From a virus: a DNA stretch of 61,156 nucleotides. The stretch spans positions 1 to 61,156 of IMG/VR virus record IMGVR_UViG_3300045125_000015; one strand, 5' to 3'. Below the pieces are notes generated by a model. It did no database searches, had not been told where the DNA came from, and saw only the letters and a program-made list of their open reading frames with translations. This document shows positions 46,731 through 55,739 of the stretch, one piece after another (position 1 is the stretch's first letter; the number at the start of each line of letters is the position of its first letter). Both the position numbers and the translations under genes were made by a program.

Positions 46731-46880
46731 TTAGAAGCAGTTGGTATTGCAGTTGCCTGCGTAGTCACAGCAGGTGGTGCATGTAATGTACCGGCCGTTC
46801 TGCTGGTAGGTATGGGTGGTGCAAGCTGCGTAGGACAGGCTTGCTGCGGTGATAGCCCAGATAGCGATGAGGTATTTCAT
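46731..46880 (-). CDS. Small cysteine-rich exported protein, 49 residues
   Basis: MKYLIAIWAITAASLSYAAC is a textbook signal peptide or lipoprotein-type leader. The rest, TTHTYQQNGRYITCTTCCDY AGNCNTNCF, is packed with cysteines (seven in all including the one after the leader). The start overlaps the RecB-like gene stop (ATGA). Intact. Probably a periplasmic or outer-membrane disulphide-rich micro-protein; function unknown. Confidence 0.8.
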   Translation of the reverse strand: MKYLIAIWAITAASLSYAACTTHTYQQNGRYITCTTCCDYAGNCNTNCF

Positions 46881-47760
46881 AGTTCACTCTCCTTACGGTA
46901 GTTTTTCCACTGATCGCAGAACGGTGCTGCCTGACAGAAGCTCTCGCATCGTGTCCTGCCGCCCTCTCTGGTCTCAACGTAATGCGCTCCTTTCTGTTCG
47001 GCCAGGAACGCTTCGGCCTCCTGCTTGATGGCAAATACTTTCTTCGCCCGCTTGCCGCCGTCCTTGAAGACAGCGTAGGTCGTAGGCTTCTCCCACATCT
47101 CTGCCGGCGTACACTCAGGCATCTGGCCAGAGACTGCGGCGAAGTTGGCCTCGTTGTGCTGGTGCAGCCGTGTCGCGCACAAACTGCTCGCGGGTGTCCT
47201 GATCCCACAGCGGGATGTCCAGTGGTCACGATGGGTGCCTGCGGGTAGGCGTCCTTGTAGGCTGCTTCCCTGCGGCTCCAGTCCCGCACGATGCCGACAA
47301 TCTTCAGGCCGGTGACAGGCACAGACTTCACGCGCTCGACCAGCCATGCGTACATGTTGAGCTGGTCTATCCAGTCGGTCTTCTCCTGCTGGACTGCCCA
47401 CGCGCTGGTGACTTTGTAGTCGCTGATAATCACGCTGCCGTCAGACTGGTATTCCTGCAAGTCAATCTGGCCAGAGATGCGCCAGCCCTCGAAGGTGGTG
47501 AACAGCCGCTCCTCGACTACGTGATGGTCATCCTTGCCGTGCTGGAGGATGTTGTGGCAGGCTGATCCGAACAGGCTCCATACCTGGTCAGCGGCATCTA
47601 CCTCGATCTCCTCGGCATGGCGGCGGCGTAGCTGCACCAGCTGCGGCGGGGACAGGATCTCAGTCACACTGATCTCGCTGTCGCCACGGCTGTAGGTAGG
47701 CCGCGCTGATGACGGTAACGGAATGTGGCGGGACAGTTGTGTTTGTTGGTCAACTTCAGT
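46877..47760 (-). CDS. RecB/Cas4-like PD-(D/E)XK exonuclease, frameshifted
   Basis: RPTYSRGDSEISVTEILSPP, QLVQLRRRHAEEIEVDAADQ, VWSLFGSACHNILQHG, EERLFTTFEGWRISGQIDLQ, EYQSDGSVIISDYKVTSAWA hold the nuclease core (E in the E-E-R helix region, D in Q-I-D-L, D-Y-K). The C-terminal part is QDTREQFVRDRLHQHNEANF ... RCESFCQAAPFCDQWKNYR, whose Cys group recalls the Fe-S cluster of Cas4/AddB-type nucleases. The start is ambiguous: an extra C at about 47758 seems to have turned ATGAAG into ACTGAAG. Indels near 47705 and 47200. About 295 residues. Supplies single strands for ERF. Confidence 0.83.
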
Positions 47761-47943
47761 GTCTTTGTCCTCTATGGCACAACGCGGTAAAAATATCACC
47801 AGCAAGTTCATGGTTTCTTCAGCGTGTCTCTCTGCATGTCTCAAGTCAAATTCCCAACGACAACGCGCATCTTGTCGTATGCGGCGTGAGCTGGCGAAGC
47901 GTACGGTCGATAAGTGCCGTCCTCAGGTAATTGCTTTGCTCAT
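47756..47943 (-). CDS. First gene of the leftward operon, small protein, frameshifted
   Basis: MSKAI then EDGTYRPYASPAHAAYDKMR, VVVGNLT, DMQRDTLKKP and ELAGDIFTALCHRGQRH. Three frame breaks within 190 bases, but the stop overlaps the next start as everywhere else in this operon. About 61 residues. Ribosome site aggaggag lies eight bases upstream, just below the leftward promoter. Function unknown. Confidence 0.6.
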
Positions 47944-47969
47944 GTGTTCTCCTCCTAGATCTAGATATT

Positions 47970-47998
47970 ATCCTAGTCCTACATTTAGATCATGTCAA
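47970..47998 (-). promoter_or_regulatory. Leftward early promoter, TTGACA-N17-TAGGAT
   Basis: On the minus strand: perfect -35 TTGACA (47998-47993), 17-base spacer, -10 TAGGAT (47975-47970). The RNA would start about 20 bases before the aggaggag ribosome site of the gene at 47943. The stretch just downstream (atctagatctagg) is an inverted repeat and may be an operator. It would drive the recombination and carbohydrate genes down to 34796. Confidence 0.8.
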
Positions 47999-48005
47999 TA
48001 GGTAG

Positions 48006-48034
48006 TTGCAGGCAGGAACAATGTGTTGTATCAT
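48006..48034 (+). promoter_or_regulatory. Rightward promoter, TTGCAG-N17-TATCAT
   Basis: -35 TTGCAG at 48006-48011, 17-base spacer, -10 TATCAT at 48029-48034. Back to back with the leftward promoter. The spacer contains caggaacaatgtgttg, identical to the spacer of the promoter at 49388. ACAA-tgtg-TTGT within it is a small inverted repeat that could bind a repressor. No good gene starts follow before the terminator at 48189, so the product may be an RNA. Confidence 0.7.
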
Positions 48035-48040
48035 ACATCA

Positions 48041-48220
48041 CATGTGGAAGAACTGCCACGAGCTGGGAAAAGGTGGTAGAGTTTTCACGGGTCAGTCCGT
48101 CGGTGATCACTCTCCCTTTGCTTGATCTCCTCAGCTGGCGTGGCTGACCCCTGAATTCTCGCGGTCGCTAAGAGGCGAGCGGCGCTTTGCCCCGGTCTCG
48201 GTGATGCCGGGGTCTTTTTT
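48041..48220 (+). ncRNA. Candidate structured small RNA, about 180 nt
   Basis: Bounded by the promoter at 48006 and the terminator at 48189. A long-range 7-bp perfect pairing (gggtcag 48089-48095 with ctgaccc 48144-48150) closes a roughly 48-base internal region. The only open frame is 27 codons (from ATG in catgtgg). I therefore propose a non-coding regulator, but a leader peptide is possible. Confidence 0.45.
48189..48220 (+). terminator. Rho-independent terminator
   Basis: ccccgg (48190-48195) pairs with ccgggg (48207-48212) around an 11-base loop, followed by tc and six T. Directly beyond its T-run lies the stop of a possible minus-strand micro-gene at 48220. Confidence 0.8.
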
Positions 48221-48357
48221 CAGGAGTTGCCGGAGATGGCCGATAGCACCACGGCCACGAGAAAGACGGCAGCAACGACGCCCAGCCGGGGGTGGCGAGT
48301 AACACCGGCAGCCGGGGCTCGACTTTGCCTATAGAGCCAGTGACCCGGCGCTTGCAT
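48220..48357 (-). CDS. Possible single-span membrane micro-protein, 45 residues
   Basis: The minus-strand ATG at 48357 gives MQAPGHWLYRQSRAPAAGVT, then RHPRLGVVAAVFLVAVVLSA and ISGNS. A basic N terminus and a clean 17-residue hydrophobic span make a plausible N-in membrane peptide. No clear ribosome site, and it lies opposite two candidate small RNAs, so it may be fortuitous. Confidence 0.4.
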   Translation of the reverse strand: MQAPGHWLYRQSRAPAAGVTRHPRLGVVAAVFLVAVVLSAISGNS

Positions 48358-48380
48358 GAAGTCTCATACTGTCTTACACT
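48352..48380 (+). promoter_or_regulatory. Candidate promoter, TTGCAT-N17-TACACT
   Basis: -35 TTGCAT at 48352-48357, 17-base spacer, -10 TACACT at 48375-48380. It directly precedes the second hairpin-ended transcript. Moderate match to sigma-70 consensus. Confidence 0.5.
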
Positions 48381-48386
48381 GTGCGC

Positions 48387-48490
48387 GTCACTGTGTCGGG
48401 CAGCGACAAGCCACCGAACCCTTGAGGTTTGGTTCTTACCCCTGAGGGAACGTGCCCTACACACGGAGAGCCAAGCCTCAAGGGTTTTTC
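48387..48490 (+). ncRNA. Candidate small RNA with 11-bp terminator stem, about 104 nt
   Basis: Expected start about 48387 from the promoter at 48352. The 3' part forms a perfect 11-bp stem, aacccttgagg (48417-48427) with cctcaagggtt (48476-48486), extended by ttgg/ccaa, with T5 at the end. The 40-base apical part can form further short helices. No convincing open frame fits inside. Such long-stem, T-ended structures act as terminators or stable small RNAs. Confidence 0.5.
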
Positions 48491-48520
48491 ATTTCCGGCT
48501 AGTGACCGTACCTTCCGCGA

Positions 48521-48777
48521 TGAGCAGAGAGCCTGCATGGGCTGCCGAAGAGAGAACACCGGCTACCGAGCACCCCGGCAACGCCGCGCAGCCTGTTAGT
48601 GAGGGACTGCACAAGATTACGGAGCCAGTGGTGAGACAAATCCGTGGTCGAAGCAATCGCTACCTTCTGGGAGCCAGAGCAAGTAACGGGATACGAAAGT
48701 ACCCAGCACAAGCGACCGGCAGCCAGGATCAGCAGGAATCATTGCTGGTCTGGGCAGGTGTGATACTCCAGTCGTGA
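48521..48777 (+). CDS. Doubtful open frame, 85 codons
   Basis: MSREPAWAAEERTPATEHPG through VRQIRGRSNRYLLGARASNG to VWAGVILQS. No ribosome site, no family resemblance and a basic/Ala-Gly composition typical of GC-rich non-coding DNA. It fills the stretch between the second small RNA and the HNH gene, where I otherwise see nothing. Listed so the gap is described. Confidence 0.25.
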
Positions 48778-48822
48778 CCTGCGGTAGGGGAAACGGCACG
48801 GCTTATCACCCTTGGAGGACCT

Positions 48823-49356
48823 ATGGGAGAAATGATGGGAGCGTCAAAAATTGGTATGGCCATGCTTTCCAGGTACATCAAGCACCGGCTTGGCTGCGGA
48901 GCAAAGAATGGAGTCAGCCCGTACGACTTGGCCTGCAAGGTCTTGGAGATGGATGGGAAACGTAAGCCTTTTGGCTTGAAGTCGAAAGCATGGGTGGAGC
49001 GCAACCTTGAGCACATATCTGCAATCTCGCGGCAGTACGTCAGCACAAAGCCATACCAACCACCGCCAAAACCAAAGAAGAAAGCGCCAGCAATTAGTCC
49101 CAACGTTATCTCAAATGATTTATTTTTAAAAACATATGAGTGGCGTCGTCTTCGCATGGAAGCGTTGAAAAAGTATGGGCCGAAGTGTATGTGCTGCGGC
49201 GCTACGCCTGCGACTGGTGCGGTCATGAACGTGGATCACATCAAGCCACGCAAGTTATTCCCAGAGCTGGCGTTGGAGATATCCAACCTTCAGATCCTCT
49301 GCCATGAGTGCAACCACGGCAAAGGCAACTGGGATCAGTCGGACTGGCGGTCGTGA
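48823..49356 (+). CDS. HNH endonuclease, first clear rightward early gene
   Basis: Intact, 177 residues, ribosome site ggagg before ATG 48823. The helical N terminus (LSRYIKHRLGCGAKNGVSPY) and a Pro/Lys linker precede the nuclease part: YEWRRLRMEALKKYGPKCMC CG, VMNVDHIKPRKLFPELALE and NLQILCHECNHGKGN. Zinc cysteines C-M-C-C and C-H-E-C frame the H-I-K-P-R-K and N-L-Q-I-L-C-x-x-C-N-x-x-K motifs. Because it is kept intact in the early operon it may serve recombination or defence rather than homing. Confidence 0.88.
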   Translation: MGEMMGASKIGMAMLSRYIKHRLGCGAKNGVSPYDLACKVLEMDGKRKPFGLKSKAWVERNLEHISAISRQYVSTKPYQPPPKPKKKAPAISPNVISNDLFLKTYEWRRLRMEALKKYGPKCMCCGATPATGAVMNVDHIKPRKLFPELALEISNLQILCHECNHGKGNWDQSDWRS

Positions 49357-49387: not shown

Positions 49388-49416
49388 TTGACAGGAACAA
49401 TGTGTTGACGGATACT
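49388..49416 (+). promoter_or_regulatory. Rightward early promoter, TTGACA-N17-GATACT
   Basis: -35 TTGACA (49388-49393), 17-base spacer, -10 GATACT (49411-49416). The 16-base word caggaacaatgtgttg (49392-49407) is identical to that in the promoter at 48006, arguing for a shared operator or activator site. A small palindrome (cctagatatagg, 49438-49449) follows just before the next gene. Confidence 0.75.
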
Positions 49417-49456
49417 AGATGTAGAGGTACAGTGATTCCTAGATATAGGAGTGGAT

Positions 49457-53425: not shown

Positions 53426-54206
53426 CAAGATAAGAATTGATGGCGGCACACAAAGCCGACTCAAGATAGACGAGAACGTAGTAGCGCAGTACGCCTATGA
53501 CTTAGAGAATGGTGCTGAGTTCCCGCCGGTGGTGGTCTATAACGACGGCACAGATTACTGGCTGTCTGATGGCTTCCACCGCTACCTATCCCGCAAGCGT
53601 ATCAACAGCCCAGGGATCAACGTAACCGTCCGTGAAGGCACATCCAGGGACGCCCTGCTCAACGGTATAGAGGCCAACAATAAACACGGCCTGCGCCCAT
53701 CTAACGAAGATAAGCGGCACGGTGTACTCATCATGCTTAAAGATATCGAGTGGCAGGACATGAGCGACCGGCAGATAGCCAAGATCGCAGGCGTGAGTCA
53801 CACCTACGTCAGTAACTTGCGCAGAGAACTGAAGGAAGAAAACAAGAAAAGTGTAAACGTTGCCACAAGCAAGAATCGTACCAAAGAAGAAAAGCCTGCT
53901 GATCCTGTCGCTGATTTTACCGAGGCGGAGGTTGAGCGCGAGACCATGGCGGCGGCGGTAGAGGAATTGCAAAAGCAGAATGAGGACTTGCAAGATCAGC
54001 TGGCGATTGTCATGGCTGCAAGTACGGATGATATCCAGAAGGAAAGAGCTGAGTCAGTCATCAAAGATTTACGCGCACAACTGCGGGCAGCGGAGATAGA
54101 ATTAAAAGAAGTCACCATCAGCCGCGACATGTACCAGCGTGAGAACGGCGAGCTGAAGAAGCAAGTGACTTCCCTCCTGAAGAAACTCAAGAAGTACGAA
54201 CAATAG
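53409..54206 (+). CDS. ParB-like nuclease-domain/HTH protein with coiled coil
   Basis: Intact, 265 residues. LSLDKIRIDGGTQSRLKIDE, ENGAEFPPVVVYNDGTDYWL and SDGFHRYLSRKRI form a ParB/Sulfiredoxin-like domain (D-G-F-H-R in place of G-x-R-R). A helix-turn-helix follows (MSDRQIAKIAGVSHTYVSNL) and a C-terminal coiled coil of about 100 residues (VEELQKQNEDLQDQLAIVMA). Phage relatives lie in replication operons. Likely a DNA-binding replication or partition accessory, not proof of a plasmid state. Confidence 0.88.
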   Translation: MNLSLDKIRIDGGTQSRLKIDENVVAQYAYDLENGAEFPPVVVYNDGTDYWLSDGFHRYLSRKRINSPGINVTVREGTSRDALLNGIEANNKHGLRPSNEDKRHGVLIMLKDIEWQDMSDRQIAKIAGVSHTYVSNLRRELKEENKKSVNVATSKNRTKEEKPADPVADFTEAEVERETMAAAVEELQKQNEDLQDQLAIVMAASTDDIQKERAESVIKDLRAQLRAAEIELKEVTISRDMYQRENGELKKQVTSLLKKLKKYEQ

Positions 54207-54250: not shown

Positions 54251-55739
54251 ATGCCTCTAACATTGCGGGACTACCAAGAAGAAGCTATCCAAAAACTCAG
54301 AGAAGGATTCGCGAAGGGACACAGATCACAACTGTTATATCTAGGAACTGGCGGCGGCAAGACTGAGATTGCCATCGCCATGCTGGATGCGGCCAAGAAG
54401 AAGGGCAGCAAGGCAGCGATGATCCTAGATCGTATCGTCCTGTGCGATCAGACAAGTCGGCGGCTCGACAAGTACAGCGTCGATCACGGCGTACTCCAAG
54501 CAGGTCACTGGCGGTACAAGCCATACGAGAACATCCAAGTCTGCTCTGCTCAGACATTGGAGAAGCGCGGAGACTTTCCAGGTCTTGATCTTTTGGTCGT
54601 TGACGAGTGCCATGCCCAGCGTAAGCAGACCATCGAGTTCATCAAGAACAATCCGCACGTTCGTGTGGTCGGATTGTCTGCTAGTCCGTTTACCAAAGGG
54701 CTGGCCAACACTTATTCCAACGTCGTCAGTCCCATCACCACCAAGCAGCTAGTCGAGCAGGGTTCGCTGGTTCCGCTGCGCGTGTTCATCGCCAAAGAAG
54801 TGGACATGACTGGAGCCAAGAAGGTAGCGGGCGAGTGGAGCCAGGCAGATGCGACCGAGCGCGGCCTCAAGATCACCGGCGATGTGGTCACAGAGTGGGC
54901 GAAGAAAACCCGCGAGATATTTGGTGAGCCTCGCAAGACCATCGTGTTCGCGTCCGGCGTTGCGCATGGTGCAGATCTGGCGGCCAAGTTCCAAGCACTC
55001 GGCTACAACTTTGTCAGTCTGAGCTACAAAGATGATGAGGAGTGGAAGCGCGAGGTGATCGAGGACTTTGCCAAGCCCGACAGCAAGATCATCGGCCTGA
55101 TTGCCTGCGACATTCTGACCAAAGGATTTGACAACGAGCATGTCATGATCGGCGTGTCGGCGCGTCCGTTCTCCAAGTCATTCAGCAGCCATGTCCAGCA
55201 GATGGGCAGGGTCATGCGGGCAAACCAGACCAACCCTGAATCCAAACCGTTCGCTGTGTGGCTAGACCATAGTGGCAACTACCTTGCGGTTTCGCACCGA
55301 CTGGGAGGAGCTGTACGACGTAGGCGTAACCAAGCTGGAGGATGGTAAAGAGAAGCCCAAGAAAGAACTGACAGAGAAGCAGAAGAAGGAAAGCAAGTGT
55401 CCTGTCTGTGCAGCGTTGTGGGTTGGTGGGTCTGATACTTGTTACAACTGCGGCCACGTTCGTGAGCGTCGGAACATGGTGCAAGAGGTTGACGGCAAGC
55501 TGGAGGAACTCAGCGGCCATGTCCCGAAGGAAAACAAGCAGCAGTTCTGGTCTGAGATGGTCTGGATGATGCGGTATCAAGGCTGGTCGAAGGGTAGGGC
55601 AAGCCATACCTATCGGGAGAAGTTCGGAGTCTGGCCGAAAGGTCTGAGCGACAACACTCCGTCCGTACCATCGGCAGAAACCAAGAAGTTTATCGACAAG
55701 AAGCTACACGCATTCCTTAAAAAGATAGGCAGAAGATAA
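54251..55739 (+). CDS. SF2 DEAD/DEAH-type helicase with C-terminal zinc knuckle
   Basis: MPLTLRDYQEEAIQKLREGF; Walker A LYLGTGGGKTEIAIAML; motif Ia/Ib region VCSAQTLEKRGDFPGLDLLV; DECH box VVDECHAQRK; motif III VVGLSASPFTKGLA; motif V GLIACDILTKGFDNEHVMIG; motif VI QQMGRVMRANQ. After one indel near 55283 the C-terminal part has CPVCAALWVGGSDTCYNCG, a zinc ribbon, and a basic tail. About 496 residues. Probably the replicative or origin-opening helicase for this phage, acting with the primase downstream. Confidence 0.9.

Follow-up and report, generated by a model that had tools for sequence, protein, structure and literature searches.

Structured RNAs and a conserved R2-R3 cassette in the noncoding region between divergent operons of an environmental phage

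In the phage sequence studied here, the interval 47944-48822 appears to form an island of noncoding RNAs among the early genes of a tailed phage. At its core stands a cassette in which a small RNA ending in a pseudoknot-terminator (R2) is followed by a larger folded RNA (R3), and this pair has relatives in more than 60 other environmental phage sequences. Judging from covariation, the RNAs are almost certainly real. The best-supported mechanism, to which we give a probability of roughly 0.55, is that the core cassette would be transcribed from a single sigma-70-type promoter, with R3 reached by polymerase that passes the terminator of R2.

Gene setting and features of the region

The window, that is, the whole stretch of DNA analyzed (61,156 bases), is the entire virus record IMGVR_UViG_3300045125_000015. 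An exonuclease gene and an Erf-like annealing gene lie leftward of the RNA region, and an HNH endonuclease gene, a ParB-like gene, and a helicase gene lie rightward of it. Related phage contigs were gathered by searching with the exonuclease and HNH proteins, and their alignment indicated that the noncoding interval is kept piecewise: contig L079 aligns to 48351-48489 and 48511-48672 of the window and L080 to 48352-48642, both without the HNH gene. The following features were identified.

46765-47844, leftward of the RNA region: exonuclease gene (phrog_2139)
47944-47998, minus strand: leftward early promoter TTGACA-N17-TAGGAT at 47998..47970, 10 of 12 matches in the promoter scan
47955-47964 and 47979-47988: palindromic sites CTAGATCTAG and CTACATTTAG, paired at the leftward promoter
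48006-48034, plus strand: promoter-like TTGCAG-N17-TATCAT of the preliminary description, 8 of 12 matches, uncalled by the scan
48074-48082, plus strand: conserved extended -10 TGGTAGAGT (TG.TA..GT), the better-supported R1 promoter
48089-48220, plus strand: R1 RNA, a long hairpin with CACTCTCC and TCTCCT motifs, then an intrinsic terminator
48194-48220, plus strand: intrinsic terminator of R1, 9 pairs and T6
48235-48266, plus strand: R4 remnant, CCAACACGCATGGGGATTG...CAGTCCCCAGCCGTGTTGG, aligning to 4275-4306 of contig L003
48352-48380, plus strand: R2 promoter TTGCAT-N17-TACACT, conserved in relatives
48386-48490, plus strand: R2 RNA, consisting of a 5' hairpin (H1), stem A (TGTGTCGGGCA paired with TGCCCTACACA), stem B (48416-48437 with 48466-48487, 22 continuous pairs, 28-nt loop), and a T-run
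48507-48822, plus strand: R3 RNA, helices P1-P5 and two long-range pairings
48823-49356, plus strand: HNH endonuclease gene at the 3' edge of R3 (phrog_144, E 5.6e-19, 177 aa)
49388-49448, plus strand: TTGACA-N17-GATACT, the next promoter in the rightward direction; two CTAGATNTAG sites with 24-bp spacing

No conserved reading frame stays open among the homologues; compared with the window, each of the 40 R3 relatives carries indels whose lengths are not multiples of three. This agrees with the preliminary description, which had seen no credible gene before the first terminator; the homologous regions of related phages likewise hold no conserved peptides.

Relatives have an additional 1-2.5 kb of small leftward genes. 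The window lacks these and therefore looks deleted or damaged at 47820-47943. The first leftward ORF (47820-47943, minus strand) has a strong Shine-Dalgarno sequence and an ATG and stops after six codons, after which the frame runs on into the exonuclease ORF. The helicase ORF (54251-55348) covers only part of its PHROG profile (269-602 of 986), and this partial match suggests a split gene or sequencing indels in the record. Ten ORFs outside the region were scanned against PHROG, with little gain in information on host or lifestyle. A match to an Acidovorax phage helicase, together with the name of the Rfam family RF02932 discussed below, weakly hints at a host among the Betaproteobacteria. 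Blast searches against 50,697 phage genomes, with the region or with a mixed R3 query, gave no match, and we found no description of these RNA elements in the open-licence literature.

Structure and conservation of the RNAs

The segments of R2 are arranged in the order A5'-B5'-A3'-B3'-T-run, so that the two stems interleave as a pseudoknot whose second stem, B, is the terminator. The same topology, with differing sequence, was seen in a side-by-side comparison with contigs L003, L082, L084, and L087. In an alignment of 21 sequences, 96.5% of the cells were paired and 15 of 33 pairs had changed on both sides (7/11 in stem A and 8/19 in stem B), giving a covariation of 0.251 against 0.122 in shuffled alignments and at most 0.07 when the structure was slid. 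Across 63 R2 elements, stem A scored higher within its own locus than with swapped loops (Mann-Whitney p 2.5e-23, an optimistic value because the sequences are related). These conservation tests are far stronger than the folding score of R2 (z -6.2 versus dinucleotide shuffles). By eye, the 5' arm of stem A often sits in a small 5' hairpin loop (GTC...GAC in the window).

The most widely conserved stretch is R3, downstream of the interval singled out in the preliminary description. It is 230-320 nt long and matches the pattern CCTGTYAGYGAGGGAYKG, for which at least 119 viral stretches were counted, a few of them chance matches; those judged to be false (L092, L126, L149, L162, L174, L187, and L197) were taken out of the R3 set. 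A slightly narrower pattern had one match in 257 Gb of bacterial genomes (L208), a 28-nt fragment of 13.4 bits that was discarded. In a 41-sequence alignment, R3 was 94.9% paired, both sides had changed in 27 of the 33 pairs counted, and the covariation was 0.586, compared with 0.191 in shuffles. The first long-range pairing joins the P4 loop to a downstream segment; the search pattern fixes one of its arms and leaves the partner arm free, and L080, which lies outside the pattern retrieval, keeps the pairing by compensatory changes (CGATGA/TCATCG). The second joins the P5 loop to the 3' end and alternates between GGUGA/UCACC and GGUGG/CCACC. When the window and its closest relatives were left out of the training set, the resulting covariance model recovered 48529-48667 at 116.5 bits (E 3e-26).

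The order of the two elements is also conserved: R2 was found upstream of R3 in 66 of the 71 loci with enough upstream sequence, and the same scan matched 1 of 193 background windows.

Homologues of R1 were found in six contigs (L003, L080, L093, L097, L121, and L175). The parts unchanged across these and the window are the extended -10, seen as the invariant columns T17, G18, T20, A21, G24, and T25, and the two CUCC motifs. Because the extended -10 is invariant in all seven sequences, R1 transcription more likely begins at about 48089, later than the TTGCAG-N17-TATCAT sequence would imply. The letters of that sequence, proposed earlier as the rightward promoter, are indeed present; its -10 is not conserved among relatives, and it is probably not the promoter of R1. 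The terminator reported for the rightward RNA was confirmed. R1 would be an RNA apart from the cassette, ending at its own terminator; its CUCC motifs could base-pair with Shine-Dalgarno sequences, pointing to a possible anti-Shine-Dalgarno role.

The secondary structure of R1 is poorly supported by its own alignment, and its RNAalifold consensus fold was dropped as evidence; its folding z was -3.3 versus dinucleotide shuffles (-2.5 for the longer stretch 48037-48220). YCUCC hairpin loops are mildly commoner on the R1 strand (33 vs 21), too weak a signal to be taken as a general excess of CUCC loops. The best sub-threshold Rfam match in the window, anti-hemB at 18.1 bits, is confined to the R1 terminator and was rejected as an identity.

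Element R4, a long hairpin, has conserved arms and is interrupted by an internal loop; it is intact in relatives, some of which have two copies, and degenerate in the window. It was found upstream of R2 in 15 of 65 loci checked, including L080, L082, L084, L096, and L134.

The preliminary description had pictured two small RNAs ending in terminators. Covariation in R2 and motif conservation in R1 uphold them. The promoter at 48352 was confirmed and is conserved, and the second structured element does end in T5 and has a longer stem than the 11 bp first proposed. The pseudoknot of R2, the larger third RNA, and the R2-R3 cassette had been missed.

Transcription of the cassette and alternative readings

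The leftward sigma-70 promoter was present as first described. By eye, a TTGACA-N17 promoter lies at the equivalent place in L003, L079, and L080, where its arrangement with the paired sites is repeated; in the window, the segment 47944-47998 also holds the Shine-Dalgarno sequence of the truncated first ORF. CTAGATNTAG-like palindromes, paired at a spacing of 24 bp, lie at 47955-47988 and, by the 49388 promoter, at 49415-49448; such pairs recur in many relatives and look like operators of a phage regulator. The 16-mer CAGGAACAATGTGTTG at 48013-48028, inside the promoter-like sequence at 48006-48034, has an identical copy at 49392-49407, so that it precedes two rightward transcription units; it also occurs twice in L079.

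Divergent early promoters, paired palindromes at the leftward and rightward promoters, and early terminators recall lambda-type early control, whereas the window differs in having several conserved structured RNAs between the promoters and no repressor or integrase that we could find: neither an integrase (PF00589) nor an HTH_3 domain above the cut-off was detected in the window, the latter giving only a sub-threshold match at 53748-53819. A role for the small RNAs in the early switch, as first suggested, is not established, since cassettes headed by R2 are also found at a distance from divergent early promoters, as behind a primase gene in GenBank MW202426. The paired palindromes at the leftward and 49388 promoters are the likelier switch elements.

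The promoter score was 8.47 before R2 (shuffled, 6.39) and 5.36 before R3 (shuffled, 6.03), and about 16 nt separate the R2 T-run from R3 in the window. The promoter signal before R2, its absence before R3, and the short gap argue for one transcription unit, in which R3 is probably made by read-through of the R2 terminator. The two elements are 130-360 nt apart in some relatives, in one case with a small ORF between them, so that a separate R3 promoter is possible there. In the proposed sequence of events, R2 would be the first product, and its 5' hairpin loop would pair with the stretch immediately preceding the terminator's 3' arm. Owing to this pseudoknot, most transcripts would probably end at the R2 terminator, and some polymerase would continue into R3. 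The pseudoknot-terminator would give R2 its stable 3' end and would at the same time act as a gate setting the amount of R3. One point against this model is that stem B is a strong terminator, so that little R3 could remain. Early in infection, the RNAs may act in trans, with RNAs or proteins of the host or of the phage as targets.

Alternatively, R2 could be a regulated attenuator and R3 a riboswitch-like or antitermination leader for the downstream gene or operon, both acting only in cis with no role of their own. In the window, R3 does have a start codon immediately after it and no promoter of its own, and the early leaders of phages such as HK022 contain RNA antiterminators. However, the downstream gene varies among phages; where the HNH gene is lacking, a separate promoter and operator-like sites stand between R3 and the next operon; and no terminator or occluded ribosome site is seen consistently after R3. 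We regard control in cis alone as unlikely.

The HNH gene offers another reading, in which the RNA behind R2 would work with the nuclease as a selfish element, comparable to omega RNA and IscB, or would be a ribozyme or intron. When searched from the HNH side, about half of the HNH relatives had an R2-like element, mostly 250-480 nt upstream. Yet the gene is within 1.5 kb of only 3 of 95 R3 sites, which rules out HNH and R3 as one unit as a general rule; the HNH gene is an optional insert or neighbour outside the core cassette. Moreover, the RNA type behind R2 varies among loci with similar HNH proteins, and the window has no Rfam match to introns, HEARO, or ribozymes. The 177-aa phage HNH protein is also too short to be IscB, which has split RuvC and HNH domains. 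We regard a selfish HNH element as improbable.

It is still more doubtful that the conserved structure acts as DNA, i.e., as a replication origin or a packaging or recombination site. A position between divergent early operons would suit such a site, but the G-U pairs and compensatory changes are as expected of a folded RNA, the promoter and terminator are conserved along with the structure, and R2-headed cassettes sit inside operons in other phages. Least credible of all is R2 as an RNA antitoxin or decoy of the type III toxin-antitoxin kind: type III RNAs (ToxI) are likewise small and pseudoknotted and a phage mimic of ToxI is known (PMC3475682), but R2 has no repeats or tandem copies in the window, its second helix is a long terminator stem, and the neighbouring gene codes for an HNH nuclease instead of a ToxN-like protein.

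Exchangeable RNAs behind R2 and relation to known families

In related phages, several distinct structured-looking RNAs fill the slot downstream of R2 and upstream of the HNH gene. Large, differing examples were seen in L004, L009, L021, L008, L036, L018, L072, and L075; the type shared by L009 and L045 has a T-loop-like GTGGGTTCAAGTCC, and L072 has a tRNA-like stretch. In the slot RNA of L004 and its kin, 23 of 80 predicted pairs show compensatory changes. Two GenBank phages also carry such cassettes, under or beside CDSs labelled 'hypothetical protein': MW202484 (L221, MW202484.1 33508-33900) has R2 and then an R3-like RNA, and MW202426 (L222, MW202426.1 7510-7990) has R2 and then another RNA type. 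We tentatively suggest, as a possibility short of an even chance, that phages widely share a cassette headed by a constant R2, whose exchangeable slot takes different large folded RNAs that would be effectors against host machinery or defences early in infection.

Rfam 15, in which membership is a covariance-model score above the gathering score of the family, gave no match in the window, R1, R2, and R3 included, and only tRNAs reached threshold at the R3 loci scanned. The slot RNA of L065 matches RF02932 (Betaproteobacteria-1 RNA) at 83.6 bits, a family that R1, R2, and R3 of the window do not match. GOLLD and ROOL are large, elaborately folded phage RNAs, often located by tRNA genes and of no known function (PMC12286853). 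tRNA genes are similarly close to the cassette in L082 and L084, whereas R3 is much shorter than those families of several hundred nucleotides, is paired with R2, and did not match them in Rfam.

Large folded RNAs of unassigned function are a standing problem in phage biology. Our results add two RNA families that Rfam does not contain; their structures are supported by covariation, their tandem order is conserved, and they offer a testable transcription logic of one promoter, a pseudoknot-terminator, and read-through into a large RNA. Such cassettes are easily overlooked, since the corresponding loci in some GenBank phage genomes carry hypothetical-protein annotations. The slot behind R2 is where more such RNAs may be sought.
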